DNA from: Candidatus Coprenecus stercoravium
GTDB taxonomy: Bacteria > Bacteroidota > Bacteroidia > Bacteroidales > UBA932
DNA: 42,954 bases
NCBI GenBank assembly: GCA_019116865.1
Contig: DXAW01000082.1
Location: 1 to 42,954, forward strand
Reading direction: 5' to 3'
Positions 1-18,677 of this stretch are shown in pieces. The notes beneath the pieces were generated by a model. That model saw only the letters and a list, made by a program, of their open reading frames with translations. It had not been told where the DNA came from and did not search any database. A program made the translations under genes and the position numbers. Positions within the stretch are counted from its first letter, which is position 1. Each line of letters begins with the position of its first letter.

Positions 1-715
1 CACTTAGTACGATGATACCGATAACCCAGTACGGAATGAGCTTGCCGACGATGAAGGTAAGCTTCGGGACGGGGGTGACGTTGATCTGCTCGATGGTGCC
101 GGCCTCCTTCTCACCGACGATGTTCATAGCCGGGAGGAAACCGGTGATAAGGGCCACTACGAGCATGATCAGGGCCGGAATCATGGGTATCTTATAGTCC
201 ATCGTGGGATTGAACCAGTAGTAGGGGTCCACGGCTATGCCGCCGGGAGACGTCAGCGTCACGGCCCCGCGCTCCAGGTTCACCTCTTCGGCGAAGTCCA
301 TCACTATGACGTCGAGGTAGGACGTGCCGAGGCTGGCCTTGGTCCCGTTGACTGCATTGGCCTCTATCAGAAGAGAGCTGCCGCCCTCCGAGAGCAGGTC
401 CTGCTCAAATCCGTAGGGCACCTCGAGGATGATGTCCGCATCCCCGAACTCCACCTGCTCCATAGCATCGTCCGAGCGCATGAAGACCCCGGTGATGTCG
501 AAATATTCGGTAGAGGCTATCTTCTCAGTCAGCAGCCGGGAGAGGTCCGAGCGGTCGTTGTCCACCACGGCCACGTTGACGTTCTTTATCTCCATGGTGG
601 TGGCCCAGGGGAAGACCAGCATCACCAGTACGGGCAGGGCTATGACGATGAAGAGGATGAAGGGGTCTCTCGCCATCTGCTTGAATTCCTTTTCTATGAG
701 ATATTTGAGTATCAT
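1..715 (-). CDS. ABC-2 type transporter permease, N-terminal part (runs off window start)
   Basis: Minus-strand reading from ATG at 715: MILKYLIEKEFKQMARDPFILFIVIALPVLVMLVFPWATTMEIKNVNVAVVDNDRS..., the same architecture as the neighbouring permease; no stop before window edge. Confidence 0.85.
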   Translation of the reverse strand, partial: MILKYLIEKEFKQMARDPFILFIVIALPVLVMLVFPWATTMEIKNVNVAVVDNDRSDLSRLLTEKIASTEYFDITGVFMRSDDAMEQVEFGDADIILEVPYGFEQDLLSEGGSSLLIEANAVNGTKASLGTSYLDVIVMDFAEEVNLERGAVTLTSPGGIAVDPYYWFNPTMDYKIPMIPALIMLVVALITGFLPAMNIVGEKEAGTIEQINVTPVPKLTFIVGKLIPYWVIGIIVLS

Positions 716-1878
716 AGCCTGTCCTTGAATTTAAATACGCTCAGTCCGGTGATCACCGTCAGGAAGCCGCACAGAATCAGCACTGCGTCGAGGCAGTAGC
801 GGATGCCGAGGCCCTGAATCATCATCACCTTAATAGAGTCAATATACCATTTGGCCGGTACACAGTAGGATATCCACTGCAGCACCTTCGGCATGCTCTC
901 GATGGGGAAAAGCATGCCGGAGAGCAGCATCGTAGGGAGCATCAGCACCATGCCGGAGATAAGTATCGCCACCTCCTGCTTGGCCACGAGGGTCGATATC
1001 AGGATGCCTATCGACAGCGATACGAGAATGAACAGCAGCGACACCAGCACCACCCACATCAGGCTGCCCGATATCGGCACCTTTATCAGGAACACCGAAA
1101 GGCAGAGCACTATCAGCAGGATGAAGGCCGAGACCACGAAGTAGGGTATAGCCTTGGCCAGTATCACCGAGAAGGGCTTCACGGGCGAGACCAGCAGCAC
1201 CTCCATCGTCCCCCTCTCCTTCTCGCGGACGATGGATACCGAGGTCATCATCGCGCACACAAGCATGAGGATCATACCCATCACTCCGGGTACGAAGTTG
1301 AAAGCACTCTTCATCTGAGGATTGTACATCATGCGGGTAGAGGTGCGTATCTGTACGGGCGAGACTGCCTCCGCTGAAGAAGAGCCGCCGGCCGCAGCCT
1401 GGTTGAGAGCTGCCTCCTGAGCCAGTTCCTTCTGAAATGAGGAGACTATGCTGCTGACGTAGAATACAGCCATCGAGCCGATATTGGTGTTGGAGCCGTC
1501 CACGATTACCTGCAGGCGGCCGTCGGAGTCATGGACGGCGCGGTGGTAGAAATTGTCCTCGAAGACCAGGGCGATGTCCGCCGAGTTGGAGCGGAAGGCC
1601 TCCAGTACCCCGTCCTCCCCGTCCAGAAAAGCAGTTACCGTGAAATATTCACTGGCGTCTATCTGGCTGATGAGCCGCGATGTGGCCGCATCCCGCGAGG
1701 GATCGTAGACAGCCACCTTGACATCCTTGATCTCCGTGGAGAGTGCGAAGCCGAAGAGCACAATCATCACAACCGGCATCACGATGAGCACCATGAGGGC
1801 CCTCGTATCCCGGAGAATGTGGTTGAACTCCTTGCCCACAAAGGACATGAACCGTTTAAAATCCTGCATCCTTCCCAT
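712..1878 (-). CDS. ABC-2 type transporter permease (YhhJ/YbhR-like)
   Basis: 388 aa; N-terminal TM, large extracytoplasmic domain, then TM cluster with VREKERGTMEVLLVSPVKP motif typical of ABC-2 permeases. Confidence 0.9.
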   Translation of the reverse strand: MGRMQDFKRFMSFVGKEFNHILRDTRALMVLIVMPVVMIVLFGFALSTEIKDVKVAVYDPSRDAATSRLISQIDASEYFTVTAFLDGEDGVLEAFRSNSADIALVFEDNFYHRAVHDSDGRLQVIVDGSNTNIGSMAVFYVSSIVSSFQKELAQEAALNQAAAGGSSSAEAVSPVQIRTSTRMMYNPQMKSAFNFVPGVMGMILMLVCAMMTSVSIVREKERGTMEVLLVSPVKPFSVILAKAIPYFVVSAFILLIVLCLSVFLIKVPISGSLMWVVLVSLLFILVSLSIGILISTLVAKQEVAILISGMVLMLPTMLLSGMLFPIESMPKVLQWISYCVPAKWYIDSIKVMMIQGLGIRYCLDAVLILCGFLTVITGLSVFKFKDRL

Positions 1879-1882
1879 AGCG

Positions 1883-2689
1883 TCATTCCTCCCTTTTGGC
1901 CCGCCCGGCGAGCATTCTGAATACTTCGTCCATACCCGAGGCCCCGTACCGCTGCTTGAGAGCCGCCGGTGAGTCCAGCGCCTCTATCCTGCCGTCCACC
2001 ATGATGGAGACGCGGTTGCAGTACTCAGCCTCATCCATGTAGTGGGTCGTGACAAACACTGTGATGCCCCTCTCTGCGGCATCGTAGATCATCTCCCAGA
2101 ACCCGCGGCGGGTAGCGGGATCCACACCTCCGGTAGGTTCGTCCAGGAACACCACTTTGGGCTCGTGGAATATGGCCACTGAGAATGCAAGCCTCTGTTT
2201 CCATCCCAGCGGCAGGTCCCGTACCATGCGGTTCCTCTGCTCTGTCAGGTCGAGCCGCTGCAGCAGTTCCTCGGTCTTCTCCGCTATATCCCTGTCCTTC
2301 ATCCCGTAGATGCCTCCGAAGAGCCGGATATTCTCCCACACCCTGAGATTCTCGTAGAGGGAGAACTTCTGGCTCATGTAGCCGATTACCTTTTTGAGCC
2401 GCTTCACGTCGCTGTTGAAATGCAGGTCGTAGCCGGCTACCACAGCTCTGCCTTCAGTGGGCTTGCTCAGGCCGCAGAGAATCTTCATGGCCGTGGTCTT
2501 GCCGGCACCGTTGGCGCCCAGAAAACCGAATATCTCGCCCTGACGCACGGAAAAAGATATGTGGTCCACGGCGGTGAAGTCGCCGAAGCGCTTTGTCAGC
2601 CCTTCCGTGCGGATGACCTCGCCTTCCTGGAGAAACGGTTTCTCCTCGTGGCCTAGGAATTCCATTATGCGTTCTCTGGTCGTGCTCAT
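1883..2689 (-). CDS. ABC transporter ATP-binding protein
   Basis: Walker A GANGAGKTT, Walker B VVFLDEPTGGVDP; variant signature LPLGWKQRL. Confidence 0.93.
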   Translation of the reverse strand: MSTTRERIMEFLGHEEKPFLQEGEVIRTEGLTKRFGDFTAVDHISFSVRQGEIFGFLGANGAGKTTAMKILCGLSKPTEGRAVVAGYDLHFNSDVKRLKKVIGYMSQKFSLYENLRVWENIRLFGGIYGMKDRDIAEKTEELLQRLDLTEQRNRMVRDLPLGWKQRLAFSVAIFHEPKVVFLDEPTGGVDPATRRGFWEMIYDAAERGITVFVTTHYMDEAEYCNRVSIMVDGRIEALDSPAALKQRYGASGMDEVFRMLAGRAKREE

Positions 2690-3618
2690 GAGTGCTCCTC
2701 CAAGGTATCAAGGTACATGTAACAGTCTTCTATGTTGGGGCTGATGCGTTGTATGCTGAAGTCGCTGTGCCCCTGTGCGTGGAGTGCGGTGCTAAGAGTG
2801 TCGGTGAGCGCCTCGTCCGAAAGGCCGTCGGTGCGCATGACTACGTGGTGGGTGTCGCCGAAAGCGAAGCAACTGAACACCTGCGGTATGCGGCGTATGT
2901 CTCTTAGCAGCGACGGCATTTGCGGTCCGCTTACTGCCAGCAGCGGCAGAGTGAATTTGGAGATGATACCCGAGGGGGTGTCGGTGTCCAGAAAACGTCC
3001 TTTCTGTATCAGTGCTATCCGGTCGCACAGTGTGGCTTCGTCCATGTACGGAGTGGATACGACTATCGAGAGCCCCTGCTGCTTGAGTCTGGTAAGCATG
3101 TTCCAGAACTCTTTTCGGGAGACCGGATCCACGCCTGTGGTCGGCTCGTCGAGGAAAAGTACGTCCGGCTTGTGTATCAGGGCGCAGGACAGGGCCAGTT
3201 TCTGTTTCATGCCGCCTGACAGTGCTCCGGCCTTACGTTTCTTGAAAGGCTCCAGATAGGAGTATATATCCTTGACCAGATCGTAGTTCTCTTCGAGAGT
3301 CGTGCCGAAAAGGGTGGCGAAGAAGCGGATATTCTCCTCTACGCTCAGATCCTGGTAGAGGGAAAAGCGTCCGGGCATGTAGCCTACTTTGTTTCTTATC
3401 TCGTGGTAGTCTCTGACCACATCCAGCCCCAGTACCCTGGCTTCTCCTCCGTCGGGCAGGATGAGTGTGGTGAGGATGCGGAAAATCGATGTCTTGCCTG
3501 CGCCGTCGGGGCCGATGATGCCGAAAATCTCGCCTTCGCCTACATGAAACGACACTCCGCGGAGAGCCTCGTTGCTTCCGTAGTGCTTTCTGAGATTATC
3601 TGCCTCGACGCTGTACAT
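2686..3618 (-). CDS. ABC transporter ATP-binding protein
   Basis: Walker A GPDGAGKTS, signature LSGGMKQKL, Walker B VLFLDEPTTGVDP. Confidence 0.93.
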   Translation of the reverse strand: MYSVEADNLRKHYGSNEALRGVSFHVGEGEIFGIIGPDGAGKTSIFRILTTLILPDGGEARVLGLDVVRDYHEIRNKVGYMPGRFSLYQDLSVEENIRFFATLFGTTLEENYDLVKDIYSYLEPFKKRKAGALSGGMKQKLALSCALIHKPDVLFLDEPTTGVDPVSRKEFWNMLTRLKQQGLSIVVSTPYMDEATLCDRIALIQKGRFLDTDTPSGIISKFTLPLLAVSGPQMPSLLRDIRRIPQVFSCFAFGDTHHVVMRTDGLSDEALTDTLSTALHAQGHSDFSIQRISPNIEDCYMYLDTLEEHS

Positions 3619-3627
3619 GGGTGTTGA

Positions 3628-4545
3628 TTATATGAATTTCAGGTCTCCGTACATGCCTATCTTGACGTAGCCGTCGTTGATGAATGACACCTTGATGGCG
3701 TAGACCAGATTGGCCCGTTCGTCCCTGGTCTGGATGGTCTTGGGCGTGAATTCGGCCTGATCAGATATCCAGGATACTGTGCCCTCGTACTCCCTTGTGC
3801 CTTTCTCGCCCGAGTCGGCCAGTACTCTTACTTTCTGACCCAGCTTGATGCCTGTCAGCTGTGAGGCTGTGATGTAGGCCCTGAGGTGGAGGTGAGTCAT
3901 GTCGGCCACTTTGAACAGGGGCTTGCCTGCGGCGGTCAATTCCCCGGCCTCGGCATATTTGACAAGAACAGTGCCGTCAATAGGGGATACGATACGGCAG
4001 CGGCGCAGGGACTCCTCCACCTGGGCTATCTGGGCCCGGTAGGAGGCTGCCTCGGCTTCGGCGATAGTATTGTTCTGCGTGATGTCGGCCTCGGTGGCAG
4101 TCAGCTGTGTCTCCAGCAGTTTGATGGATGAGTTCAGGTCGTCCAGCTGTTTGGTGTTGGCTGCGTCGGCCTCGATGAGCTTGCTGACCCTGGCTGCCTC
4201 ACGGCGGTTGACATCTATCTGCTCCCTGATGTAGGCTGTCTGGGTCCCGATGTCCCTTTTACGGCTGAGGGCCGCGCTTACTCCGGCTTCAAGCTGTAGT
4301 TTCTGCAGGTGGAGCTGAACAGTGTCCACCATGCCGCATGTCTGGCCGGCGGAAAGGGCGCCTCCTTCCATTACATCCAGGCTGATCAGGCGTCCCGATG
4401 CCTCGGCTGATACGACCACTTCGGTAGCCTCGAAAGTGCCGGAGGCGTCATGGCCGGAGGTATCGTCCTTGCACGATGTGAGCGCTGCCAGCATCAGTCC
4501 CGCCGCTGCCGGCAGTATGTATGTCCATTTGATAAGTGTATTCAT
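3628..4545 (-). CDS. HlyD-family membrane fusion (periplasmic adaptor) lipoprotein
   Basis: Lipobox LTSC after signal peptide; biotinyl-lipoyl-like halves flanking a coiled coil (EATEVVVSAEASGRL / RCRIVSPIDGTVLVKYAEAGE). Confidence 0.9.
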   Translation of the reverse strand: MNTLIKWTYILPAAAGLMLAALTSCKDDTSGHDASGTFEATEVVVSAEASGRLISLDVMEGGALSAGQTCGMVDTVQLHLQKLQLEAGVSAALSRKRDIGTQTAYIREQIDVNRREAARVSKLIEADAANTKQLDDLNSSIKLLETQLTATEADITQNNTIAEAEAASYRAQIAQVEESLRRCRIVSPIDGTVLVKYAEAGELTAAGKPLFKVADMTHLHLRAYITASQLTGIKLGQKVRVLADSGEKGTREYEGTVSWISDQAEFTPKTIQTRDERANLVYAIKVSFINDGYVKIGMYGDLKFI

Positions 4546-4556
4546 ATCGGTATAGT

Positions 4557-5894
4557 TTAGCTGTTTTTAATCGTTTTCAGTTCGTAGATGGCTTTCATCA
4601 TTTCTATCTGGTGCATGATGAGCTGTTTGCGGGCCGCATTCTCCTTGTTTATCTCGGACACCAGGTCGGATGCGTTCTTGGTGCCGTTCTCTACTCCGGC
4701 CTCTGTGGACTTGCGGATATTCTCCCTGAGCTCCACTATCTTCTCATCATCCTCCACTATCTTGAAATATCTGCGTATCTCTGCCACCTGCTCCTCCACC
4801 TGGAGGTTGGTGTTGAACAGAAATGTCTCACGCACCGTATTGATCTGATCTTTCGAGTAGTTGACTATTTTCTTGCCGTAGCCAAGACTGTACAGCTGGC
4901 TGATGTTCCACACCAGACGGATGCCTCCTATGGCGAAAGGCTGGAAAGAGTTGTCCATCATGTTGAGGCCCGGCCGTCCGTAGCCGCCCCGTATGAAGAG
5001 ACTGAACTGCGGCAGTCCGCCGGCCGTCCAGTAGTCGAGCTGTGTGTCTATCTCCAGCTCCTGGGCCTTGTACAGGCTAAGCTCGGGCCGGCGTATCTCG
5101 GCCTCTATCAGGGCTGTCAGCATGGCCTCCCTGTCTATTCCGTCAGGCACCGGTATGACCAGGCAGCGGCTGTCGTCTATTTTCACTCCTGTCATGATAG
5201 TCAGTACCCGCAGGTAGGCGTCGAGCATCGAGCGCAGGCTTTCCCTGTTCTGGTTCTGAGTGATGCGCTCCACTTCTATCAGGTCCAGGTCGGAGAGGTT
5301 GGCCACACCGTTGGCGATACAGTTCTCTATCCTTTTGCGCTCTCTTTCAAGATCCGACATGAGTATGTCCACCTGCCTTATCTGCTGGTCGAGGTACAGT
5401 GCTCCGAAATACAGGTCGTTGACCTTCTCTCTGAGCGAATACATGTTGATGTCCTGCTGCGCCATGTCGACATCGGCCTTTGCCCTGATGTTGGCCCTGT
5501 TGGCGGCGATCATTCCTCCGTCCCACAGCACCTGCGACAGTTCGACGATGACGGCGTACTGGTCCTTGCTGAACGTGGGCATCTCTATTCCGTATGGACT
5601 GAGGTCGAAGGGAAACTCCAGCACGTCGGTCTGATACGAGGCGGAACCCTGCAGGGATATCTGGGGGAAATAGTTCATGTAGGCATTCTTGAGGGTGAAT
5701 TCCTCAGTGAGGTCCAGCAATTTGTAACGCTCGACCAGAGGATAGTTCTCCTCGACCAGTTCATAGCATCGTTCGATGGTGTATACTGCGGACGAGTCTG
5801 TGGCCGTAGCCGCCGGTGTCTGCTGGGCATAGGCTGTCACAGCGCCTGTCATCAGCGCGGCCGCTCCTATGATATATGTCTTTAGTGTATTCAT
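4557..5894 (-). CDS. TolC-family outer membrane efflux protein
   Basis: 445 aa, signal peptide, ERCYELVEENYPLVERYKLLDL start typical of OEP proteins; position in efflux operon. Confidence 0.88.
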   Translation of the reverse strand: MNTLKTYIIGAAALMTGAVTAYAQQTPAATATDSSAVYTIERCYELVEENYPLVERYKLLDLTEEFTLKNAYMNYFPQISLQGSASYQTDVLEFPFDLSPYGIEMPTFSKDQYAVIVELSQVLWDGGMIAANRANIRAKADVDMAQQDINMYSLREKVNDLYFGALYLDQQIRQVDILMSDLERERKRIENCIANGVANLSDLDLIEVERITQNQNRESLRSMLDAYLRVLTIMTGVKIDDSRCLVIPVPDGIDREAMLTALIEAEIRRPELSLYKAQELEIDTQLDYWTAGGLPQFSLFIRGGYGRPGLNMMDNSFQPFAIGGIRLVWNISQLYSLGYGKKIVNYSKDQINTVRETFLFNTNLQVEEQVAEIRRYFKIVEDDEKIVELRENIRKSTEAGVENGTKNASDLVSEINKENAARKQLIMHQIEMMKAIYELKTIKNS

Positions 5895-6523
5895 GGTCTG
5901 AGACTTGCGATAATAGTTCTGATTATTTCCTGTTTACGGCCGGCGATGAACTCTTCCCGGTTGGCGTCGGTGACAAGGCCGACTTCCTCCAGGAACGGCA
6001 GGACGACGAAGAATGTGACGACAAGGGAGAACATATTGAGAGTGATGTCCATAGTGCAGGTAGAGCGGATGCGTCCGCTTTCCATTTCCTCTCTAATCTT
6101 GGCCTCCAGCCTGGACGTGGCTTCTGTACACAGACTTACTATATTGTCCTTCAGGTTGATTCTTTGGTCCGGATTGATGATGAACTCACTGAGGAACATA
6201 AACGGCAGCCGCTCATTGGCCGCCATAAGATCGAAAAGCCTGGATGTGCGTACCTCGATCAGTTTCCCGAACGGAAGGGACTCGTCCTCCTGCTTTACGA
6301 TGCAGTCGATGAACTGCTGGAACTTTCCCTCGAATATTTTCGAGAAAAGGTTCTCCTTAGTCCTGAAGTAGTAGTGTACGAGGGCCTGGGTGCAGCCGGC
6401 CTCCTTGGCTATCTCCGTCATACTTGTCAGGTTATAGCCCTTGTTGAGGAAAAGTCTCTCCGCACATGCGAGGATTCGGCTTTCCATGCCTTCGTTTCCG
6501 CTATTGTCCTCCTTGTCTTTCAT
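5891..6523 (-). CDS. TetR/AcrR-family transcriptional regulator
   Basis: N-terminal HTH SRILACAERLFLNKGYNLTSMTEIAKEAGCTQALVHYYFRTKENLF; first gene of the efflux operon. Confidence 0.93.
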   Translation of the reverse strand: MKDKEDNSGNEGMESRILACAERLFLNKGYNLTSMTEIAKEAGCTQALVHYYFRTKENLFSKIFEGKFQQFIDCIVKQEDESLPFGKLIEVRTSRLFDLMAANERLPFMFLSEFIINPDQRINLKDNIVSLCTEATSRLEAKIREEMESGRIRSTCTMDITLNMFSLVVTFFVVLPFLEEVGLVTDANREEFIAGRKQEIIRTIIASLRP

Positions 6524-6642: not shown

Positions 6643-8046
6643 ATGACTTTAAGGGAATACATACCTTTTTATAGGAGAAATCTGAAAGTGGCGCTGCCGG
6701 TGATGGTGACTCAGGCCGGGCAGGTGCTGGTGCAGCTGGCAGACAATATCATGGTGGGACATCTGGGAGCCGCGGAGCTGGCGGGTGTATCGTTCGCCAA
6801 TGCCATCATCATGATAGGACTTGTGTTTGCAATCGGTTTCGCACAGGGAGTCACCCCTGTAGTGGGGCAGCATTTCGGCAAGGGCGACGGGAAGGCTGTG
6901 GCTGTGGCATTGAGCAATTCGGCGGTGCTCAACACCATTATGGCCGTTGTTCTTACGACAGTGATGCTGCTTGTGGGTGTGTTCATGGACAGGATGGGAC
7001 AGGACCCGGAGGTACTTGTCCATGCGAGGGATTACTATTTTATAATAGTGGCGGGCTTCATTCCGATGATAGCGTTTTTCAATGTCCGCTTCTTCTCGGA
7101 GGGTATCGGAAACACCCGCAACGAGATGTGGATAACTATCTGGACCAACCTGCTCAATATATTCCTGAACTGGGTGCTTATCTACGGTAATCTGGGAGCA
7201 CCGAGGCTAGGAGTGGCGGGTGCTGCCTGGGCCACGCTTATCTCCAGGGTGATAGGGGCCGTGGCCTTTCTGGTCATACTTTTCCGTGTGGAGGAGTACA
7301 GGCGCTTTGTCAGACTCACTCCGCGACGTCCCGTATCTCTGTCGGGAATGTACCGCCAGCTGAAGCTCTCGCTGCCTGTCTCATTGCAGAATCTGCTGGA
7401 GGTCACGGCATTCAGTTTTGCCGCCATCATGGTGGGGTGGATGGGTAAATACGACCTGGCCGCACATCAGATAGCGCAGAATCTCAGTTCTCTGTCTTTT
7501 ATGATAGCAACAGGTATCGGTGCGGCCGCTACTATCCGTGTATCGCACCAGTTCGGAGCCGGACGCAGGGAGGATGCGTATCATGCCGGCAAGGCGGCTG
7601 TGCATATGGCGGTGGCGATAATGCTGCTGTTCGGTGTGCTGTTCATCTCCATGCACCGGGTGATACCTTTTATATATACCGACGATCCTGCCGTGATACC
7701 CATAGCGGGCAGGCTTATCATCATTCTGGCTCTGTATCAGATTTTCGATGCGGTCCAGCTGGCAAGCCGTTCGTCGCTCCTGGGCCTTAAGGATATCAAT
7801 ATTCCGTTGATTTTCTCAGCCATATCCTATTATGTGGTCTGCCTGCCGAGCGCCTACTTCCTGGGATTTGTAATGGATTTGGGACCTGAGGGTGTATGGA
7901 TAGGCCTGTTGCTGGGTCTGGCTGTGGCCGCACTGCTGTTCTGTACCCGTTTCGTCCGTATCAGCCGGCGCTATATCCGCTCAGCCGGTGGATGTGACTA
8001 CAGAGAGAAGTCGCGCCAGGCCTCGCCGTCCCATTCGGAGGAGTAG
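6643..8046 (+). CDS. MATE-family multidrug efflux transporter
   Basis: LPVMVTQAGQVLVQLADNIMVGHLGAAELAGVSFANA and repeated 6-TM halves; start placed at 6643 (MTLREYIPF) because the promoter -7 box lies at 6616-6623, downstream of the listed ORF start. Confidence 0.93.
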   Translation: MTLREYIPFYRRNLKVALPVMVTQAGQVLVQLADNIMVGHLGAAELAGVSFANAIIMIGLVFAIGFAQGVTPVVGQHFGKGDGKAVAVALSNSAVLNTIMAVVLTTVMLLVGVFMDRMGQDPEVLVHARDYYFIIVAGFIPMIAFFNVRFFSEGIGNTRNEMWITIWTNLLNIFLNWVLIYGNLGAPRLGVAGAAWATLISRVIGAVAFLVILFRVEEYRRFVRLTPRRPVSLSGMYRQLKLSLPVSLQNLLEVTAFSFAAIMVGWMGKYDLAAHQIAQNLSSLSFMIATGIGAAATIRVSHQFGAGRREDAYHAGKAAVHMAVAIMLLFGVLFISMHRVIPFIYTDDPAVIPIAGRLIIILALYQIFDAVQLASRSSLLGLKDINIPLIFSAISYYVVCLPSAYFLGFVMDLGPEGVWIGLLLGLAVAALLFCTRFVRISRRYIRSAGGCDYREKSRQASPSHSEE

Positions 8047-9956
8047 ACCTCGGGTCTCTGCTCTTCTCCGTACAGACTTTCTGAAGTCTGCCTTACGTTT
8101 GCGTTAATGTAGTCGAAGAGGGCGCCGTAGGATATCTCGGGATTGTTCTGAAGGGCTTTCAGCAGAAAATATGTGAACAGACCGTGTCTCTTTTGGGGAT
8201 AGGGATAGGCTCCGCTGGTCTCGTCCGCTCCGTAGAATACCACCATTCTTTCCTCCGGCTGAAGTTCGGATATGCCGGGAGCGGTGTTGTTGAACAAATC
8301 AGAGCGCATTCCGTCTCTTCCTGTTTCACCATATGAGGCGTCTATCAGGAACAGTGCGTTGTCCATGGCCGAATGCAGCAGGGATGTATAGAGCCTGCGG
8401 AGGCTGATTCCGCCTTGAACGCCACCCGTGGAGTAATCTACGGGCAGCAGATAAGGTTCTTTAAGTCCGTCGTCCTCATCACATAGCCCGGCAAAGTAGA
8501 CTATGACTCTGGAGTCCACGCTGAACAGACGGGAGGTCCGCTCCAGCCAGCTCTCGATGGAGCGCATATCGGAGGATGCGGCGTCAATAACCATTTTGAT
8601 ATTGTCTCTCGGTATGCCCAGACGTCTGAGGCAGTACTGGTAGAATGTATTTCCGTCATTGGCCGCATAGGGGACGGTCTCTCCTGTGCGGTATTGTCCG
8701 TTGGCGATAATTATTGCGTATGTGTCTTTATTGCGGCCTTTTGCCTGAGGGATACCATAGTCAGTGTCCACTGCGGCGGAATCTCCTTCACAGCTCCGCA
8801 TCTGCCTGTATATTTTACCGGGGATGCTGAAATCCATATTCTCCAAGTTGTAGTCCAGAAGGAGTCCGTGTCTGCCGGTATCCCTGGCATTGAGCCATGT
8901 ATAGACTCTCTTCCCGGGAAGAGTGAATACGGCTTCCGCTATGGAGGCCCTGTCCCTGTCCACGAAATACCTCAGTCTGGCTTTTGCTCTCTTCCAGACT
9001 GTGCTTACCGTAGCTGTGTCCTGAACCGGTACAGGCAGGTCTATGTGGAAGCTGCGGCCTGTGACGTCGCTGACGGTTACGTTGAATGCGGCTGCGGCAG
9101 TGTCGTAAGTGCCCAGAGTGTACTGCGGAGCCTCAAGTTGGTTGGCTGCCAGATATTCGGCTTCGGACCTCATCTCAAGTCCCTCAAGTCTGGCCATGAA
9201 AGTCTCCTCGTTGACTCTTGCCTCCCAGTCGGCCACTGTCTCGTCGCTCTGCCGTCTCTGCCATTCGTTCATCAGGTTCATCATCTTGTCCTTGGCGTAG
9301 ATGGAGAACGGAATGCCTCTTATCCAGTCCAAAGCCCTGTCCTTGTTGGCATACCAGTCTCCGTTGCGGAATACGAAACCGGATGAGTCGGCCTTGGTCA
9401 CGGCTGCGAATCCGTCTGTTCCGAAACTGCCCGCCACATCATAGATGCAGGGCACGGTCTCCTGTCCTCCTGTGTCGATGTACCCCCATTGCTGACTGCG
9501 GCGTACGGCTGCGTATCCGTTGACGAAGTCCTTTACCTCATCGTATTTGTAGTTGACAAGAGTGTCCCCGTAGTGGTCTATGAATCCCCACTTGTTTCCT
9601 GACATTACGGCGGCATATCCTTCCGAGAACCGGTTGGCTATGTCAAAGCGGCAGGGAATCACTATGATTCCGGAAGTGTCGATGTAGCCCCATTTCAGTG
9701 TGGGGGACAGAGTTCCGAAGACGCCTCCTTCGCCGATGATGTCACCTCCCCTGGACAGTACCGGCGCATAGCCTTCGGAGAACGCCTTGACATCATCGAA
9801 GCGGCATTCTATGACTATGTTGCCTACGCTGTCTGTAAAACCGTAGCTTCCGAACCAGTCCCGGTATGGCATCAGGCTCTGTGCATTGGCGGTCATGACT
9901 GCCGCAGTCATTATCAGTGCAGTGACGGCTGCTTGTCTGAAATTTCTCATAAACAT
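7998..9956 (-). CDS. Exported WG-repeat protein with C-terminal caspase-fold (C14) domain; catalytic dyad apparently lost
   Basis: Signal peptide ...TANAQS; 4-5 WG-type repeats (WGYIDTSGIIVIPCRFDIANRFSEGYAAV etc.); caspase-like core DTYAIIIANGQY / VIVYFAGLCDEDDG / ALFLIDASYGETGR. Confidence 0.8.
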   Translation of the reverse strand: MFMRNFRQAAVTALIMTAAVMTANAQSLMPYRDWFGSYGFTDSVGNIVIECRFDDVKAFSEGYAPVLSRGGDIIGEGGVFGTLSPTLKWGYIDTSGIIVIPCRFDIANRFSEGYAAVMSGNKWGFIDHYGDTLVNYKYDEVKDFVNGYAAVRRSQQWGYIDTGGQETVPCIYDVAGSFGTDGFAAVTKADSSGFVFRNGDWYANKDRALDWIRGIPFSIYAKDKMMNLMNEWQRRQSDETVADWEARVNEETFMARLEGLEMRSEAEYLAANQLEAPQYTLGTYDTAAAAFNVTVSDVTGRSFHIDLPVPVQDTATVSTVWKRAKARLRYFVDRDRASIAEAVFTLPGKRVYTWLNARDTGRHGLLLDYNLENMDFSIPGKIYRQMRSCEGDSAAVDTDYGIPQAKGRNKDTYAIIIANGQYRTGETVPYAANDGNTFYQYCLRRLGIPRDNIKMVIDAASSDMRSIESWLERTSRLFSVDSRVIVYFAGLCDEDDGLKEPYLLPVDYSTGGVQGGISLRRLYTSLLHSAMDNALFLIDASYGETGRDGMRSDLFNNTAPGISELQPEERMVVFYGADETSGAYPYPQKRHGLFTYFLLKALQNNPEISYGALFDYINANVRQTSESLYGEEQRPEVYSSEWDGEAWRDFSL

Positions 9957-9996: not shown

Positions 9997-10797
9997 TTAC
10001 ATCATTTTTATGTTGAACATATATCTGTCGTTTCCGCTTCCCTCCTCGTCATATACGCCAGTAACCAGGATTATCCCGATTACGGACAGGTCCGTACCTA
10101 TCATGATTACGTCACCTGTCTCTATGTCATTGACGCTCTCCGCTTTCAAGGCATTGGAATACAAAGCCCACAGTCGGTTTCTGGTGATGGTCGGATAGTC
10201 TACACCGGTCATTTTCGCAAATTTCAGCCCTGACTTGGATTTCCATTTGTCGCTGAGCTGCCCGGGGTCAGATGATTCGGGCACGCAGATGTCTGCGTCG
10301 CTGTCCTCCGTGGAGGATGCGTACACCGGCTGCAATGTGAGTAATGAGAATCCGTCCGGTTTTCCGGACGCAGGCGAATATATGGTGACGGAAGTAGCTG
10401 CCTCGCTGAGGACGGCGTCCTTGCTTACAATATGTACAAATGTGGTCACCTTTTGAGAGTGAGCCTGATTGTCATATGCAGTGAAGGAGAGTTCGACCGT
10501 AAGACTGTCAGACTCCGACTCCGGGACCTTGTAAAAATATTCCACAGTCTGCCGTTTGTCGCTAAGAGCCAGAGTGTCCAGGTCTGTTTTCCCTCTCTCG
10601 CTGTCGTAAGAGGAGATTTCTATCCTGTCCATGCGGTCGTGGATAGTCCATGTCTCTATCTCGAACCGCACGGTCTCGCCTTCCGATGCTGTGTAAGCCG
10701 ACTGGTCTATAAGCAGAATAACATCGGATGCGTCCTTTTCAGAGACGCATCCGAATATTATGATTGAAGCCAATATGGCGGTCAGTGTCCGTTTCAT
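9997..10797 (-). CDS. Putative lipoprotein, unknown function
   Basis: Lipobox IIIFGC; beta-rich N-terminal segment resembling an Ig-like domain; C-terminal domain not recognised. Confidence 0.7.
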   Translation of the reverse strand: MKRTLTAILASIIIFGCVSEKDASDVILLIDQSAYTASEGETVRFEIETWTIHDRMDRIEISSYDSERGKTDLDTLALSDKRQTVEYFYKVPESESDSLTVELSFTAYDNQAHSQKVTTFVHIVSKDAVLSEAATSVTIYSPASGKPDGFSLLTLQPVYASSTEDSDADICVPESSDPGQLSDKWKSKSGLKFAKMTGVDYPTITRNRLWALYSNALKAESVNDIETGDVIMIGTDLSVIGIILVTGVYDEEGSGNDRYMFNIKMM

Positions 10798-11243
10798 TCA
10801 ACTGTTCTGTTGTTGAATTTGTATGCCTTGATTCTGGCTTTTACTGAAATGTCGCTGCCCAGAAAAAGTCTTGTGATGGATTTGTTCTGTGAGACCACGA
10901 TGAAGTAATCGGCCTCGGGGAATTCCTCTACAAGCTTGTATGCGGCGCGGTTAAGATAGCGGTACAGTCCTTCTGGTACATTCCCCACCTCGACAGTCTT
11001 TCTTTGTGCCCTGTCGTAGACTTCACCGTTGAGCGAGTCGAGGGCGGATATGAAGCCGATATATTTTCTGTAGTCGGCACTTATCTCCGTCTCGCCGATA
11101 TACACAAGATCATCCATGGATACATTGAGCCTGGTGTCGTTCATGGAGTATGACCTGTATCTCGTCACGCTGCAAGAGGACAGACTGACAAGAAGAACTA
11201 CCGGCAGCAGGTATTTATAAAATGATTTCATGGCTGGCTGCAT
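10794..11243 (-). CDS. Small putative lipoprotein, unknown function
   Basis: 149 aa; signal peptide plus lipobox-like SLSSC; 4-nt overlap with the next gene. Confidence 0.7.
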   Translation of the reverse strand: MQPAMKSFYKYLLPVVLLVSLSSCSVTRYRSYSMNDTRLNVSMDDLVYIGETEISADYRKYIGFISALDSLNGEVYDRAQRKTVEVGNVPEGLYRYLNRAAYKLVEEFPEADYFIVVSQNKSITRLFLGSDISVKARIKAYKFNNRTVE

Positions 11244-11245
11244 TA

Positions 11246-12100
11246 TTATTTGAAGTAATATGTGAGTGTCACACGCGCCTCTCCTGTGATGTCTCCTGTC
11301 CTGGCTTTCAGGGAACTGTAATTCAGGGACTCTTCTTCACTCAAGGCGGATGTGTACCAGGTCTGGGTCTCTCCTGTCTCGGAGCCGGTCACTACGTGCT
11401 TGTACTTCAGTCCGGCGTCAAGTCTGGAGCTGATGCCGAGCTCGACACCCAATGCCAGAGGCAGGTCGGCTATGTATGCCTGAAGTCCGATAAATGCTCC
11501 GAGTCCGATGACGAATGATCTCTTCGTGACTTTGTTTGTTGAGATAATTCTGTTGTAGCCGGTGATACCTTCAGTAATATTGTCGGGGTCGAATACTGGT
11601 TCGAGAGTTCCTGTCTCCGAATATTCGGTACTGCTGTCCCAGCCGATGGGCAGCTCCGCTCCGACGTATACATCGAGAATGTTCCGGCTGGAGAAGTGCC
11701 AGGCAAATCCGGGATAGAACATGGCGTTGGAGCTGGAGCTTTTGTTTATGGCCGGGAGGATGTGCGAATTATTCTCAATCTTCTGAGTCACCTCTCCGTT
11801 GAGTCTGGAGGATGTCTTATAAAGCTCCAGGCCCAGTCTCCATTCCGCCTGGTCTGTCATCATATATTTGAGATTGATAAGCGGAAGTGCGGACAGTTTG
11901 GTCTCACCGTCAACCCAGTTTCCGATCATCGTGCTGGTAACACCCAGATAGAGACCGAAATCTCCGGCCTCAGCCCTGTTTCCGGTCCTGATGACCTTGG
12001 ACGAAGGCTCTCCGGTGGTAATCTGGGCATACGCCGGAACAGACACAAATCCCATTATGCCTGCCGCGAGAAGAAGCGTTGCTAATACAGTTTTTTGCAT
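11246..12100 (-). CDS. Outer membrane beta-barrel protein
   Basis: Signal peptide (AYAQ), alternating amphipathic strands, ends in aromatic ...RVTLTYYFK typical of OM barrels. Confidence 0.75.
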   Translation of the reverse strand: MQKTVLATLLLAAGIMGFVSVPAYAQITTGEPSSKVIRTGNRAEAGDFGLYLGVTSTMIGNWVDGETKLSALPLINLKYMMTDQAEWRLGLELYKTSSRLNGEVTQKIENNSHILPAINKSSSSNAMFYPGFAWHFSSRNILDVYVGAELPIGWDSSTEYSETGTLEPVFDPDNITEGITGYNRIISTNKVTKRSFVIGLGAFIGLQAYIADLPLALGVELGISSRLDAGLKYKHVVTGSETGETQTWYTSALSEEESLNYSSLKARTGDITGEARVTLTYYFK

Positions 12101-12220: not shown

Positions 12221-12236
12221 CTCTTTGTACCTTTTG

Positions 12237-12324
12237 CGGTGAGGGGGGGATTCGAACCCCCGGTACGGTTAACCCGTACGGCAGTTTAGCAAACTGCTGG
12301 TTTAAGCCACTCACCCACCTCACC
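12237..12324 (-). tRNA. tRNA-Ser (GCU anticodon)
   Basis: Minus strand GGTGAGG...CAGTTTGCTAAACTG anticodon arm, long variable arm GTACGG-GTTAA-CCGTAC, T-arm GGGGGTTCGAATCCCCC, acceptor CCTCACC-G; CCA not encoded. Confidence 0.95.
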
Positions 12325-12368: not shown

Positions 12369-13076
12369 TTATCCACGGAAAATGGAATGTGTGGAGAGAA
12401 AGTCCAGGAAAGCCTGACGGTATGAGTCCGATACCGGGATGTGTTTTTTGTCGAAAACCACACGTCCTCGCTCGATATATGACATCTTGGACGGCTGGAT
12501 GATAAACGAGCGGTGAATCCTTATGAACCGGTCGGACGGCAGGGATTCCTCAAGGGCTTTCATGCTCATGAGCGTTAGTACAGGCTCGGTTTTCCCGCAT
12601 AGATGGATCCTGACGTAGTCTTTCAGACCTTCTATATAGAGTATGTCGTTCAGCTCTATCCTCATAATGCGGTATTCGGTCTTGACAAAGATGGCGGACA
12701 CATCGGAGCTGCAGGTGGCTTCGAACCATTTGAGCGCCTTGTCGGTTGCTTCGAGGAAGTCGTTGTAGCTGATGGGCTTCAGGAGATAGTCCAGGGCATT
12801 TACCCGGAATCCTTCTACGGCATACGAGCTGAATGCCGTGGTCATAACGACCTTGGTCCTTTCAGGCAGCATCCTGGCCAGTTCCATTCCGCTCAGTTCC
12901 GGCATCTGTATGTCGCAGAAGACCAAATCCACAGGGCTGCGTTTTATGGCCTCGAAAGCGGATGAGGCGCTGTAATACGAGCCTTGTAGTTTCAGGAACG
13001 GTGTCTTGTTGACGTATCCCTCAAGTAGTTCCACGGCCAGCGGCTCGTCGTCTATGATTATGCAGGTGAGTCTCAT
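12369..13076 (-). CDS. LytTR-family response regulator
   Basis: Receiver domain (CIIIDDEPLAVELL, FCDIQMPELSG, LLKPI) plus LytTR DNA-binding domain (IEGLKDYVRIHL ... RIHRSFII). Confidence 0.94.
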   Translation of the reverse strand: MRLTCIIIDDEPLAVELLEGYVNKTPFLKLQGSYYSASSAFEAIKRSPVDLVFCDIQMPELSGMELARMLPERTKVVMTTAFSSYAVEGFRVNALDYLLKPISYNDFLEATDKALKWFEATCSSDVSAIFVKTEYRIMRIELNDILYIEGLKDYVRIHLCGKTEPVLTLMSMKALEESLPSDRFIRIHRSFIIQPSKMSYIERGRVVFDKKHIPVSDSYRQAFLDFLSTHSIFRG

Positions 13077-13082
13077 ATGGCG

Positions 13083-14126
13083 TTATTGGATTAGACGTAT
13101 GTTCAGCCGGGCGTTGAACGTATTGCCCTCCGGACCGTATTGCAGCAGGTAGCGGCCTGGATACAGCATTTCCAGGCGTCTGTGCAGATTGTCAAGTCCT
13201 ATGCCCGTACCTTCCCGGGCCGGACTTTCTGTCTTGTGGCAGATGCTGTTGGAGACCGTGCAGTCAACGCAGTCATTGCCGATGCTGACGGTTATGTGTA
13301 CGAAGGACGGTTTGTCGTTGCTTATGCCGTGCTTGAACGCATTTTCCACCAGCGGGATGAATAGAAGCGGGGCAATCATGATTCCTGACGGGCCGGGAAG
13401 GGATACCGTCACGTCCACATTGTGCGGAAGCCTCAGCCTCATGAGGTCCACATATTCCTGGATAAAATGAATCTCGTCGTCCACAGGCACGGCCGGTCTG
13501 TTGCCTCCGTACAGGACATAGCGCAGCAGATGACTAAGGTTGTGAACGGCAGTCTGCGCTCTGACCGAGTCTATCTGGATGAGCGAATAGATGTTGTTGA
13601 GGGTATTGAAAAGGAAATGCGGGTTGACCTGGCTTCTGAGGTTCTGTAGCTCGGCTTCGGCCTGGCGGTGCTCCAGTTCCTTGCGGGCAGCCTCGGCCCT
13701 GTACCATCCTCCTGTCATTCTTACGGCCACACTGGCACCTGTGACCAGAAAATACATGAGTGCGTTGCGCATAAAGAATACAAGAGCGTCCATGAAGGGC
13801 CTGACTCTAGGCGGCCTGTGCATGTCGGGCGGCAGCACATATCTGAACACCAGATGTACTATGGTCATTATCAAAGCCGTCAGCACTATGTTCGCTATTA
13901 TGAATGCGACCATGCGGTGTCGGACAAGCAGCCGGTTAATCAGGATGAAGTAGTTGATATAGAATACAATCATGAAGGACAGCGGAATGATGAGGAAGCG
14001 CAGATATTCCTGTCCGTTCATCAGCGGTCTGTCCGGGGACGTGCTGAACAGGGGCATGGATAATACCACTGTCCAGACGAGTATGTGAATCAACCGGCCG
14101 GTATATGTGGATTGACTGGAAGTCAT
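13083..14126 (-). CDS. LytS/YehU-type sensor histidine kinase
   Basis: About 4 TM segments then LRSQVNPHFLFNTLNNIYSLI (His_kinase family) and ATPase motif PLLFIPLVENAFKHGIS. Confidence 0.94.
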   Translation of the reverse strand: MTSSQSTYTGRLIHILVWTVVLSMPLFSTSPDRPLMNGQEYLRFLIIPLSFMIVFYINYFILINRLLVRHRMVAFIIANIVLTALIMTIVHLVFRYVLPPDMHRPPRVRPFMDALVFFMRNALMYFLVTGASVAVRMTGGWYRAEAARKELEHRQAEAELQNLRSQVNPHFLFNTLNNIYSLIQIDSVRAQTAVHNLSHLLRYVLYGGNRPAVPVDDEIHFIQEYVDLMRLRLPHNVDVTVSLPGPSGIMIAPLLFIPLVENAFKHGISNDKPSFVHITVSIGNDCVDCTVSNSICHKTESPAREGTGIGLDNLHRRLEMLYPGRYLLQYGPEGNTFNARLNIRLIQ

Positions 14127-14154
14127 GACAGTGCAAAAATAAGCAATTCCGGCG

Positions 14155-15375
14155 TTATTCGTATCTGATGGCCTCGATGGGATCCAGGCTTGCGGCTTTG
14201 CGTGCCGGATACCAGCCGAAGAAGATGCCGGTGACGGTGCAGACGGCGAATGACAGAATCACGCTCCAGGGCTGTATGTAGATGGGATATGCGGCCAGGA
14301 TATTGACCAGCAGGGCGGAGCCTATGCCAAGCACCACTCCGATAAGGCCGCCGGTCACGCTGAGCAGTATCGACTCGATGAGGAACTGGGCCAGGATGTC
14401 AATGCCTTTTGCTCCTATGGACATTCTCAGGCCTATCTCTCTTGTACGCTCCGTGACAGATACGTACATTATGTTCATGATTCCGATGCCTCCCACCAGC
14501 AGCGATATGCCTGCGACAGCGGCCAGCAGGACAGTCATCATGTCTGTGGTGGATGTCATCATGGAGGACAGTTCCTGCTGTGAGCGGATGGAAAAGTCGT
14601 CCTCATCGGAGTCTTTGAGGCGGTGATTTGCCCGGAGTATGGATGAGATTTCTTCTATGGCCATGTCCGTATATTCCTCGGCAAGGGCTGAGCATACTAT
14701 TTCCTGAAGATGGGTGATGGCCAGAATGCGTTTCTGTACAGTAGTGTAGGGGGCGATTATCAGGTCGTCCTGGTCCATTCCCATACTGTTGTAGCCTTTG
14801 CTTTCAAGTACTCCTATGACACGCATGGGGATGCTGCCGAACCGGATTACCTTTCCGACCGGATTCTGTCCGTCAGGGAAAAGCTCGTCGGCAACCGACT
14901 TGCCTATCAGGCATACTTTTGCGGCTGTACGTATGTCCTGCTCGGTGAACATTTCGCCGTCTTCTACACGATAACGCCTGATATCCAGATAATCGCGGTT
15001 TATGCCGTATACCGAGGTAGGTGTGTTCTCGGCTCCGTATATAGCCTGTCCGGAACTGTTGACGACCGGCGATACATATGTGACGAAAGCGGTCTGGCTC
15101 TGAATGTCCTCCAGATCTTCTATTTTCAGCGACTCCATGTCATCGGCGCTGAGACGCACTCCGCCGCGCCGCTCTCCGCCCGGATGTATCATGATCATGT
15201 TCGAGCCCATTTCGCTGATCTGGGCCTGGATACTCCTCTTCGAACCTTGACCTATGGCCAGCATGGTGATGACCGCAGCTACTCCGATGATTATGCCCAG
15301 CATGGTTAGAAAGCATCGGAACTTATTGTTGCCAAGGGCTTTGACTGCTATTCTGAATAGATTGGCTAGATTCAT
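14155..15375 (-). CDS. MacB/FtsX-like ABC transporter permease
   Basis: MacB periplasmic core plus 4 TMs; LTMLGIIIGVAAVITMLAIGQGSK and TREIGLRMSIGAKGIDILAQFLIES motifs. Confidence 0.93.
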   Translation of the reverse strand: MNLANLFRIAVKALGNNKFRCFLTMLGIIIGVAAVITMLAIGQGSKRSIQAQISEMGSNMIMIHPGGERRGGVRLSADDMESLKIEDLEDIQSQTAFVTYVSPVVNSSGQAIYGAENTPTSVYGINRDYLDIRRYRVEDGEMFTEQDIRTAAKVCLIGKSVADELFPDGQNPVGKVIRFGSIPMRVIGVLESKGYNSMGMDQDDLIIAPYTTVQKRILAITHLQEIVCSALAEEYTDMAIEEISSILRANHRLKDSDEDDFSIRSQQELSSMMTSTTDMMTVLLAAVAGISLLVGGIGIMNIMYVSVTERTREIGLRMSIGAKGIDILAQFLIESILLSVTGGLIGVVLGIGSALLVNILAAYPIYIQPWSVILSFAVCTVTGIFFGWYPARKAASLDPIEAIRYE

Positions 15376-16118
15376 GACTGTTCCTCCTCTACGGGCATGG
15401 CGGCCAAGGTGCGTGCCGCATCAAGTATTTCCGTGTTTGTCGTGTCGGAAGTTATTTTCCCGTCACGGAGAGTGATGTTCCGGCTGCTGTATCTGGCTAT
15501 TTCCGGATTGTGGGTTACGAAAATTATAGTGCGCCCCTCCTTGTGGAGTTTCTGGAAGAGGACCAGTACCTCGAAGCTGGTACGGGTGTCGAGATTACCG
15601 GTGGCTTCGTCGGCCAGAATCACAGCCGGATCATTGACCAGGGCACGGGCAATGGCCACTCTCTGCATCTGGCCGCCTGACATCTGGTTGCTTTTGTGCA
15701 GAAGTCTGTCTCCCAGTCCCACTGCCTCCAGTGCGGCTACGGCCTTTTGTCTTCTCCGGGATGCGGAGTATGCCGGGTTGTACATCAGGGGCAGCTCGAC
15801 GTTCTCCACGGCCGTGGTCTTTGGAAGCAGGTTGTAATTCTGGAAGACGAAACCGATTTTCCGGTTTCTGAGTCTTGCCCTTTGATTCTTGTCCATGCTG
15901 CGGACTGATACTCCGTCCAGGAAATATTCTCCTGACGTAGGGGTGTCGAGGCAGCCGAGAGTGTTCAGCAAAGTGGATTTTCCAGAGCCGGAAGAGCCCA
16001 TGATGGTGACGAACTCTCCTTCCGAGACTGAAAAGCTCACTCCGCGGAGGGCATGGACGGTCTCTTCGCCCACGATGAAATCCCTTCTGATATCGTCCAA
16101 TCTTATAATTTCTCTCAT
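15372..16118 (-). CDS. MacB/LolD-like ABC transporter ATPase
   Basis: Walker A GSSGSGKST, signature MSGGQMQRVAIARAL, VILADEATGNLD. Confidence 0.94.
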   Translation of the reverse strand: MREIIRLDDIRRDFIVGEETVHALRGVSFSVSEGEFVTIMGSSGSGKSTLLNTLGCLDTPTSGEYFLDGVSVRSMDKNQRARLRNRKIGFVFQNYNLLPKTTAVENVELPLMYNPAYSASRRRQKAVAALEAVGLGDRLLHKSNQMSGGQMQRVAIARALVNDPAVILADEATGNLDTRTSFEVLVLFQKLHKEGRTIIFVTHNPEIARYSSRNITLRDGKITSDTTNTEILDAARTLAAMPVEEEQS

Positions 16119-16125
16119 CTTTGTT

Positions 16126-17313
16126 CTACTTCGGAGGGCCCGGCATGAACGGACTCCGCTCCATCTCCGGTCCTTTGACTTCCGGAGCCGCTATTCTCAG
16201 ACCTGATATTACTGTTTCTCCTTCTCCCAGTCCGGAAATGATTTCCGTCATATCTCCGTCGGTGGCGCCGATGGACACTGTCCGGGGTATAATATCCGTA
16301 CCACGGAGTGTCCAAACCGTCCTGCCTGCGGTCTGCCCCTGTGCGGAGGCGGAAACCTTAAAACCCACTTTAGAGAAAATCTCCGGATCGGGAACAAACC
16401 GCAGAGCTTTGGACGGCACTGCACACACGTTCCGGCGGTCAAGCGTATATATCGTGACGTTGGCCGTCAGACCAGGTTTTAATTTCAATTCAGGATTGGC
16501 CGCGCTGATGACCACCTCATAGGTCACTACGCTGGATTCCGTAGTGGCTTCGAGACGTACTTGCAGCACTTGACCTGAGAAAATGTCGTCAGGGTATGCG
16601 TCTACCGTGAACTCTACCCTTTGTCCTTCCTTCACATAGCCTATGTCGGCCTCGTCCACATCAGCGACCACCTGCATGTCGGTCAGGTCATTGGCTATGG
16701 TGAACAGGGTAGGTGTCTCGAATCCGGCGGCTACTGTCTGACCCTCTTCCACGGCCCTGCTGATAATTACTCCGTCTATGGGAGAGGTGATGGTGGCGTA
16801 GCCCAGGTTGCGCCGTACCCCTATTATCGAGGCCTGATTGAGAGCATAGGTGTTCTTTGCGGATTCGTAAAGGTAAAGGGCCTCGTCGTATTCCGAGTCG
16901 CTTATCAGCTCTTTTTGATGAAGCTGCTCCTTTCTCAGGTACTCCTTCATTCTGTATTCGTATTCGGTCTTGCTGGCTGCGAGCTGGGCTTCGGCCTGCT
17001 CAAGCTCTGACTCCAGAGTGACCTTGTCCATCTCCGCTATGAGCTGGCCGGCTTTTACATGGTCGTTGTAGTCTACATACAGCCTGTCTATTATGCCGGA
17101 CACCTGCGTGCCGACTTCGACCAGAGTGACAGGCTCGACCGTGCCCGTCGCCGTTACGGAATTGTGGATGTCCGTGCGGATTACCGGGGCCGTTTCCAGA
17201 CCTATGCCGCTTTTCCCGGCCGGCTTTGCAGTCAGCCAGATGATTACTGCTGCGGCCAGAACGGCTGCGGCTATGCTCCAGATGAGCGCTTTTTTAAGTT
17301 TAGTATTCTCCAT
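16126..17313 (-). CDS. MacA-like periplasmic adaptor (HlyD/RND family)
   Basis: GTVEPVTLVEVGTQVSGIIDRLYVDYNDHVKAGQLIAEMD, coiled coil, ITSPIDGVIISRAVEEGQTV. Confidence 0.93.
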   Translation of the reverse strand: MENTKLKKALIWSIAAAVLAAAVIIWLTAKPAGKSGIGLETAPVIRTDIHNSVTATGTVEPVTLVEVGTQVSGIIDRLYVDYNDHVKAGQLIAEMDKVTLESELEQAEAQLAASKTEYEYRMKEYLRKEQLHQKELISDSEYDEALYLYESAKNTYALNQASIIGVRRNLGYATITSPIDGVIISRAVEEGQTVAAGFETPTLFTIANDLTDMQVVADVDEADIGYVKEGQRVEFTVDAYPDDIFSGQVLQVRLEATTESSVVTYEVVISAANPELKLKPGLTANVTIYTLDRRNVCAVPSKALRFVPDPEIFSKVGFKVSASAQGQTAGRTVWTLRGTDIIPRTVSIGATDGDMTEIISGLGEGETVISGLRIAAPEVKGPEMERSPFMPGPPK

Positions 17314-18649
17314 ATATACCTTTTCCTTGATAGATGTTGAGCAGTTCCAGATTGAGCAGGGTCATATACTTGGCCTGAAGAGTCTCAAGTCTGGCTGTTG
17401 TCAGTTCGTTTTTCGCAGTCAGCAGTTCCACAGTGTTTTTCACACCCAGTGCGAACTGTTCGCTGGTGAGTTCATAGCTCTCCTCGGCGTATTCCTCCTG
17501 TTTCAGAGCGGATACGAACCGGGACTGGTTGGACAGGACATTGAGGTAAGCCGTCTCCACCTCCTGCAGCAGATTTTTTTCTATGCTGCGTTGCTCAAGC
17601 ATGCTGTTGTCCGCCTCGATTCTGGCTTTGTTCACGGCCGTGCGGGTCTGCCTGTTGGAATATATCGGGATGTTCAGCGACAGGCCGATGTTCTCATTGA
17701 AATTGTTCCAATATTGATTGCCGGTATTGTAGCCTGGAGTAGAACCTGTAGCCGTGCCGGCTCCTGTGGCTGTCATATAGCCGGTACCTACGCCGGCACT
17801 GAGAGTAATGGAAGGGTAGTACCCTGAGCGGGCCTGGCGTATGCCCATCTCGGCAGCCTGGACGGACAGACGGCCGCGTTTGATCTCTGGCATGGCCTCC
17901 AGGGCCGCAAGATATATGTCGGACTTGGGAGGCAGTACTGTCAGAATCTGCTCTGCCGGCACATCCGGCCCTACGGGGTTGATCTCTTCGGTTATATCCA
18001 GCTCCAGAAGCTGCTTCAACTGAAGCCTGTAGTCATCCAGTGTGGTCCGGGCGGTCACGGCCTGATACTCGTCACTCATCCACTGGCTTTCGAGCTGGGC
18101 GAAGTCCACCTTGCTGATGGAGCCTGCTGCCCACATCTGCTCGGCTCTGTCTCTCTGAGCTTTGGACGCATCAGCCGTGCTTCTGGCCACATTGACTGAC
18201 TCTGCCGCATAAAGACATTGCATATAAGCCTGAATTATGGCGGTGACGATGTCGTTTGCGGTCTCCTCTACGGTGAGCAGGTCTATCTCGTTCTGCATTT
18301 TCTGCTGTTTGAGAGCTATGTTGAGACTGCCGCCTTTGAAAAGAGTCACACCGGCGTTGATGCCGTATGTCCCGGTGTACATATTGTTGTCGGTCACGTC
18401 TTTGGACGGATAGTTGGAGAGACTTTGGGAAGTGGACGCCGATAGAGACGGAAACATGGCTGCTCTGGCCTGTTTGGTGTCCTCCATGCCGGAAAGATAG
18501 CTGTTACGGCTTTGTTTCAGCTGTATGTTGTTTTCAAGGGCATAGTCCACGCAGGCTTTCAGGGTCCATGTTTTTACGGAATCCGCATCTTGGGCGGACA
18601 CTGTCCCCGCAATACCGGCTAAACATATTATCCACAGCAGTTTCCTCAT
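17300..18649 (-). CDS. TolC-family outer membrane efflux protein
   Basis: Signal peptide from internal Met (MRKLLWIICLAGIAGTVSAQ), LKACVDYALENNIQLKQSRNSYL; start moved to 18649 because a -7 box (TATTTTTG) overlaps the listed start. Confidence 0.88.
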   Translation of the reverse strand: MRKLLWIICLAGIAGTVSAQDADSVKTWTLKACVDYALENNIQLKQSRNSYLSGMEDTKQARAAMFPSLSASTSQSLSNYPSKDVTDNNMYTGTYGINAGVTLFKGGSLNIALKQQKMQNEIDLLTVEETANDIVTAIIQAYMQCLYAAESVNVARSTADASKAQRDRAEQMWAAGSISKVDFAQLESQWMSDEYQAVTARTTLDDYRLQLKQLLELDITEEINPVGPDVPAEQILTVLPPKSDIYLAALEAMPEIKRGRLSVQAAEMGIRQARSGYYPSITLSAGVGTGYMTATGAGTATGSTPGYNTGNQYWNNFNENIGLSLNIPIYSNRQTRTAVNKARIEADNSMLEQRSIEKNLLQEVETAYLNVLSNQSRFVSALKQEEYAEESYELTSEQFALGVKNTVELLTAKNELTTARLETLQAKYMTLLNLELLNIYQGKGIYGEY

Positions 18650-18669
18650 ATTCACTGTCGAATTTTCCA

Positions 18670-18677
18670 CAAAAATA
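18670..18677 (-). promoter_or_regulatory. Bacteroidota -7 box (TATTTTTG) for tolC-macAB operon
   Basis: Reverse complement of CAAAAATA; matches TAnnTTTG; no perfect -33 box seen. Confidence 0.45.

Follow-up and report, generated by a model that had tools for sequence, protein, structure and literature searches.

A caspase fold without its catalytic residues in a predicted exported WG-repeat protein conserved in Candidatus Coprenecus

We analyzed a 42,954-nucleotide stretch of DNA (the window) from a 1.83-Mb MAG of Candidatus Coprenecus (Bacteroidales, Rikenellaceae; 82% complete, labeled G000 here), whose nearest named relatives are species of that genus from the bird gut. On its minus strand, at 7998-9956, lies an ORF that is intact over 652 codons, as had originally been read, and that encodes a putatively exported WG-repeat pseudo-caspase. 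The gene, its parts and the genes upstream of it are the following.

7998-9956, minus strand: pseudo-caspase gene, 652 aa, with orthologs in 14 other genomes of the genus, one of them a fragment
9882-9956, minus strand: signal peptide, residues 1-25, putative cleavage between Ala25 and Gln26 (Q-rule), read from the sequence
9357-9872, minus strand: WG-repeat region, residues 29-200, four Pfam copies (PF14903) and one divergent copy
8733-9356, minus strand: linker region, residues 201-408, placed by alignment; a helix-strand region in the model
8001-8732, minus strand: caspase-fold domain, residues 409-652, placed by AlphaFold2, Foldseek and orthologs matching PF00656
8655-8657, minus strand: Asp434 codon, invariant; putative S1-pocket Asp, equivalent to MALT1 D365
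8484-8486, minus strand: Leu491 codon at the catalytic His position, by alignment
8481-8483, minus strand: Cys492 codon, invariant in the pseudo-caspase clade; every active homolog tested has Gly
8340-8342, minus strand: Asp539 codon, invariant; putative S1-pocket Asp, equivalent to MALT1 D462
8334-8336, minus strand: Ser541 codon at the catalytic Cys position, by alignment
9997-12100, minus strand: optional upstream trio, same strand, gaps of 40 bp or less
9997-10797, minus strand: putative lipoprotein, trio
10794-11243, minus strand: putative lipoprotein, trio
11246-12100, minus strand: putative exported protein, trio, no Pfam or NCBIfam match

A MATE transporter gene adjoins the pseudo-caspase gene convergently in every ortholog, and in the window the two ORFs share 49 bp at their 3' ends (7998-8046). 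The upstream trio is absent beside other orthologs and is thus not an essential part; its first and last genes occur only in G000, G006 and G012, where the trio lies directly upstream, and this distribution (3 of 19 genus genomes) speaks against an operon with 9997-12100. The trio adjoins a tRNA-Ser gene (12236-12324, minus strand) and looks like an optional cassette. The flanks hold an OMP/HlyD-type/ABC set with a TetR gene (712-6523) and MacB/ABC/HlyD genes with a LytS-type kinase and a LytTR-type regulator (12369-18670).

The signal peptide named in the original prediction holds when read by eye: it ends in TANA followed by QS, and the Gln after the putative cleavage site matches the Q-rule for Bacteroidetes signal peptidase I substrates (PMC5837995). 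A Gln follows the putative cleavage site in 13 of 14 orthologs, likewise read by eye, and a hydrophobic core is present in every one. In the ortholog of G010 (L021, 1408-1470), LASCC replaces the Q-rule site, and this protein may be a lipoprotein. The envelope location that had been proposed is suggested by the signal peptide, its one line of evidence. PF14903 (WG_beta_rep) matches the protein in four stretches (E 8e-41, 138 bits, above the Pfam cut-off), with a divergent copy (YGFTD..., from residue 38) ahead of them, so that the earlier count of four to five WG repeats was fair; the region shows beta strands in the predicted model. The linker is partly common to two active paralogs, C65 and C36, in the alignment, and residues 276-405 are the most variable stretch.

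In a Pfam search the window protein alone falls under the PF00656 threshold, and four orthologs (L010, L017, L018 and L021) reach the family, scoring 36-53 bits where the cut-off is 21.4. A phmmer search of the PDB with the single protein gave no match, whereas a profile built from 62 homologous domains matched MALT1 (E 9e-17), metacaspases and caspases. When the full-length protein was modeled with 14 close orthologs, its caspase domain came out poorly (overall pLDDT 60), and the domain was therefore refolded with the 62 diverse sequences, giving a mean pLDDT of 90.2 and a pTM of 0.90. Foldseek placed this AlphaFold2 model closest to MALT1 (E 2.8e-13, probability 1.00), with caspase-7 and Arabidopsis metacaspase 9 also matched. 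Model, Foldseek and the orthologs above the cut-off thus agree on the Peptidase C14/orthocaspase fold claimed for the C terminus, and the prospect that structure prediction would return no such fold did not materialize. The His-Cys dyad of that family is absent from the window protein and from all of its orthologs.

The motifs at the catalytic His and Cys sites of the window protein read VIVYFAGLCDEDDG and LFLIDASYGETGR. Aligned with 61 homologs, Leu491 (nt 8486-8484) occupies the catalytic His column and Ser541 (nt 8336-8334) the catalytic Cys column, in agreement with the substitutions first read from the sequence. Misalignment of the dyad is ruled out, as different sequence sets agree and the flanking motifs VPYA.ND, HGLFTY and LLPVD line up. 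A conserved His/Cys pair elsewhere in the domain, which would have undone the original assignment, was looked for and none was found. Nor does any ortholog retain either residue, among the 14 full-length sequences and the fragment: the His site is Gln, Lys, Arg or Leu, and the Cys site is Ser, once Thr. The expectation of a conserved Leu/Ser pair consequently fails for the pair itself, given the variable His site, and holds for a fixed loss of the His, a fixed Cys-to-Ser/Thr change and a Gly-to-Cys change at position 492.

Full-length orthologs of the pseudo-caspase were found in 14 of 19 genus genomes (the window genome and 13 others), a 15th being cut by a contig end; the 13 other full-length orthologs have 54 to 68% identity. 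When 62 domains were placed in a tree with the dyad columns removed, the pseudo domains grouped as a single clade with support 100/100, so that the loss amounts to one change of state, and the 49 homologs that keep His-Cys include five paralogs in the window genome. A single loss of the dyad, placed in an ancestor inside Candidatus Coprenecus, was followed by purifying selection on the domain. Where dS was usable, most ortholog pairs gave a dN/dS of about 0.06 to 0.22 for the caspase domain, with values up to 0.28, and about 0.02 to 0.15 for the WG region.

These data bear directly on whether the domain is decaying, with constraint lost after activity was lost. Pseudo domains are 51 to 82% identical, compared with 73 to 93% for active caspase domains from the same genome pairs, a divergence that decay would produce. 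Faster divergence is, however, expected under relaxed as well as retuned function, and the frames of the full-length orthologs are all intact at saturated synonymous distance, dN/dS is well below 1 and the clade has invariant residues of its own. Decay is hardly credible on this evidence, and decay confined to a single strain is ruled out by the 14 full-length orthologs, the dN/dS values and the tree. The pseudo domain is under constraint with retuning, and the original statement that this is not simple decay stands, with purifying selection, for which dN/dS had been named as a check, found in the dN/dS values. A caspase fold without both catalytic residues, carrying an export signal and kept under purifying selection, is well supported.

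The changes at the active site extend beyond the dyad. In a comparison of 13 pseudo and 38 active domains, the His-Gly pair has become x-Cys in the pseudo clade, Cys492 being present in 13/13 pseudo and 0/38 active domains, and the Cys-x-Ser-Gly loop reads Ser-Tyr-Gly-Lys/Arg in most pseudo domains; both G492C and S543G are fixed in the clade. These changes leave room for a repurposed enzyme, in which Ser541 or Cys492 would serve as nucleophile with another general base, since position 541 is always Ser/Thr and Cys492 occurs in 14/14 full-length orthologs where active homologs have Gly. Such an enzyme is very improbable because no base is conserved: the partner position is free (Gln, Lys, Arg or Leu), and the domain has no new conserved His, its only invariant one, H591, being common to most active homologs. 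Moreover, the changes from Gly and Ser to Cys and Gly alter the catalytic loops themselves.

Two acidic residues have been kept throughout. Asp434 and Asp539 are invariant in 13/13 pseudo and 38/38 active domains, and in MALT1 their equivalents by sequence, D365 and D462, line the Arg-binding S1 pocket (PMC4357240). Cyanobacterial pseudo-orthocaspases likewise retain the S1 Asp pair (PMC6426788). The cleft for a basic residue has thus probably been preserved while the dyad is gone, although the conserved Asp residues could alternatively have been retained for folding. With a p20-type domain, replaced dyad residues conserved across a single clade with 14 full-length members and an acidic S1 pocket apparently retained by the MALT1 mapping, the protein matches pseudo-orthocaspases in these features.

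The window genome also encodes C65, a full-length active paralog of the same build (WG repeats, linker, C14) with an intact His-Cys dyad and 32% identity to the pseudo-caspase, together with four further active C14 proteins; all active C14 proteins of the genus that were read, including these five, keep His and Cys. In another active paralog, L003 (G000:C36), a pseudo-caspase-like linker is present and TPR repeats replace the WG repeats ahead of the caspase domain. Outside the genus, a single dyad-less homolog was found among 200 family genomes, a WG pseudo-caspase of another Rikenellaceae genome (G141) with YYSGQG and DAGFNG at the two sites (His to Gln, Cys to Gly). Its gene overlaps that of an active WG-caspase by 25 bp, in tandem, at the following locus.

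L189 (G141:C266) 777-4141, minus strand: tandem pair of pseudo-caspase and active WG-caspase genes, with a gene for a weakly DUF4384-like exported protein upstream

The active neighbor is the closest relative of the G141 pseudo gene among the genomes searched (52%), and the loss there was therefore independent of that in Coprenecus. Apart from the pseudo cases, the best 30 loci across 395 class-level genomes all keep His and Cys; the number of dyad losses is a minimum, weaker matches having been read in part.

The G141 pair hints at a pairing of pseudo and active caspases, and with it at a regulator like FLIP, in which the inactive domain would pair with active exported WG-caspases or shield substrates from them. 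A partner could be C65, which has the same architecture and an intact dyad, or one of the other four active C14 paralogs encoded by the window genome, and FLIP(L), itself an inactive caspase paralog, regulates caspase-8 (PMC7586951), which offers an analogy. Against this, no active C14 gene lies near the pseudo gene within the neighborhoods examined in Coprenecus, and no active paralog type is present in every genome with the pseudo gene. Consistent co-occurrence with one active paralog was not found, G005 and G009 having the pseudo gene with no active C14 detected in assemblies that are 81% and 87% complete. The G141 pair itself was seen in one MAG only, with no ortholog seen in 12 other genomes of its genus. 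We regard a FLIP-like role as possible and rather doubtful. The broader proposal that inactive WG-caspases, having arisen at least twice (in the Coprenecus clade and in G141), regulate active WG-caspases, or shield them, in the envelope of gut Bacteroidales is more speculative still, and we consider it unlikely.

We lean instead toward an exported pseudo-orthocaspase that binds Arg/Lys segments without cutting them and has a binding or scaffolding role in the envelope, with no dedicated active caspase needed. After export by Sec and SPI, the protein would be unable to hydrolyze peptides by the clan CD mechanism, and an acidic S1-type cleft, with Cys492 and Ser541 at the center of a remodeled catalytic floor, would bind Arg/Lys-containing segments uncut. 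The WG repeats may provide a second interaction surface, and the whole would serve in binding or scaffolding in the envelope without a dedicated active caspase. Binding or scaffolding had been proposed from the outset, and the proposal is sharpened by the S1 Asp pair, which is invariant even with the dyad gone. Four genomes of the genus without the gene (G001, G004, G008 and G011, of which G004 is 99% complete) count against this binding role. Overall, the preserved pseudo-caspase suggests a protein that works by binding and not by cutting. Given active paralogs that share its architecture and the overlapping pair of G141, the role of an inactive bacterial caspase becomes directly testable.

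Pseudo-caspases have been described in animals, plants and photosynthetic bacteria but scarcely in Bacteroidetes. In a published survey, 8.6% of the orthocaspases of bacteria were pseudo-orthocaspases; Alphaproteobacteria and Cyanobacteria contributed 90% of these, and 10 of 1078 Bacteroidetes sequences were of this kind (PMC6426788, Klemencic et al. 2019). Pseudo-orthocaspases themselves have thus already been described; what is new here is one that is predicted to be exported, fused to WG repeats and genus-specific. The literature searched describes no exported, WG-linked, genus-conserved pseudo-caspase clade with such replacements and contains nothing relevant on WG repeats with a caspase.

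The protein resembles bacterial pseudo-orthocaspases (PMC6426788), among them SyOC, whose deletion raised oxidative-stress tolerance in Synechocystis (PMC7889975), in its p20 domain without His-Cys, its fold predicted to be unchanged, its conserved S1 Asp pair and its occurrence as a conserved clade. The known members are mostly from Alphaproteobacteria and Cyanobacteria and have Tyr-Ser, Tyr-Ala, Phe-Ser or Tyr-Asn dyads, whereas here Gln, Lys, Arg or Leu is combined with Ser or Thr, and the Gly-to-Cys change, the WG repeats and the Q-rule signal peptide also set the Coprenecus protein apart. The active exported WG-caspases of Rikenellaceae (such as G000:C65 and L002) are built in the same way, with a signal peptide and WG repeats ahead of the linker and the C14 domain, and have 32% full-length identity to it, but the C65 type keeps YYAGHG and DACFSG. 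Like human FLIP(L) (PMC7586951), it is an inactive paralog alongside active caspases in one genome; unlike FLIP(L), it is bacterial, of independent origin, putatively exported and without death-effector domains, and its partner is only putative. The closest solved fold and sequence, with the S1 Asp positions in common, is that of the MALT1 paracaspase (PDB 3uo8, 7paw), which, unlike the pseudo-caspase, is an active Arg-specific eukaryotic protease with His, Cys and Ig domains.
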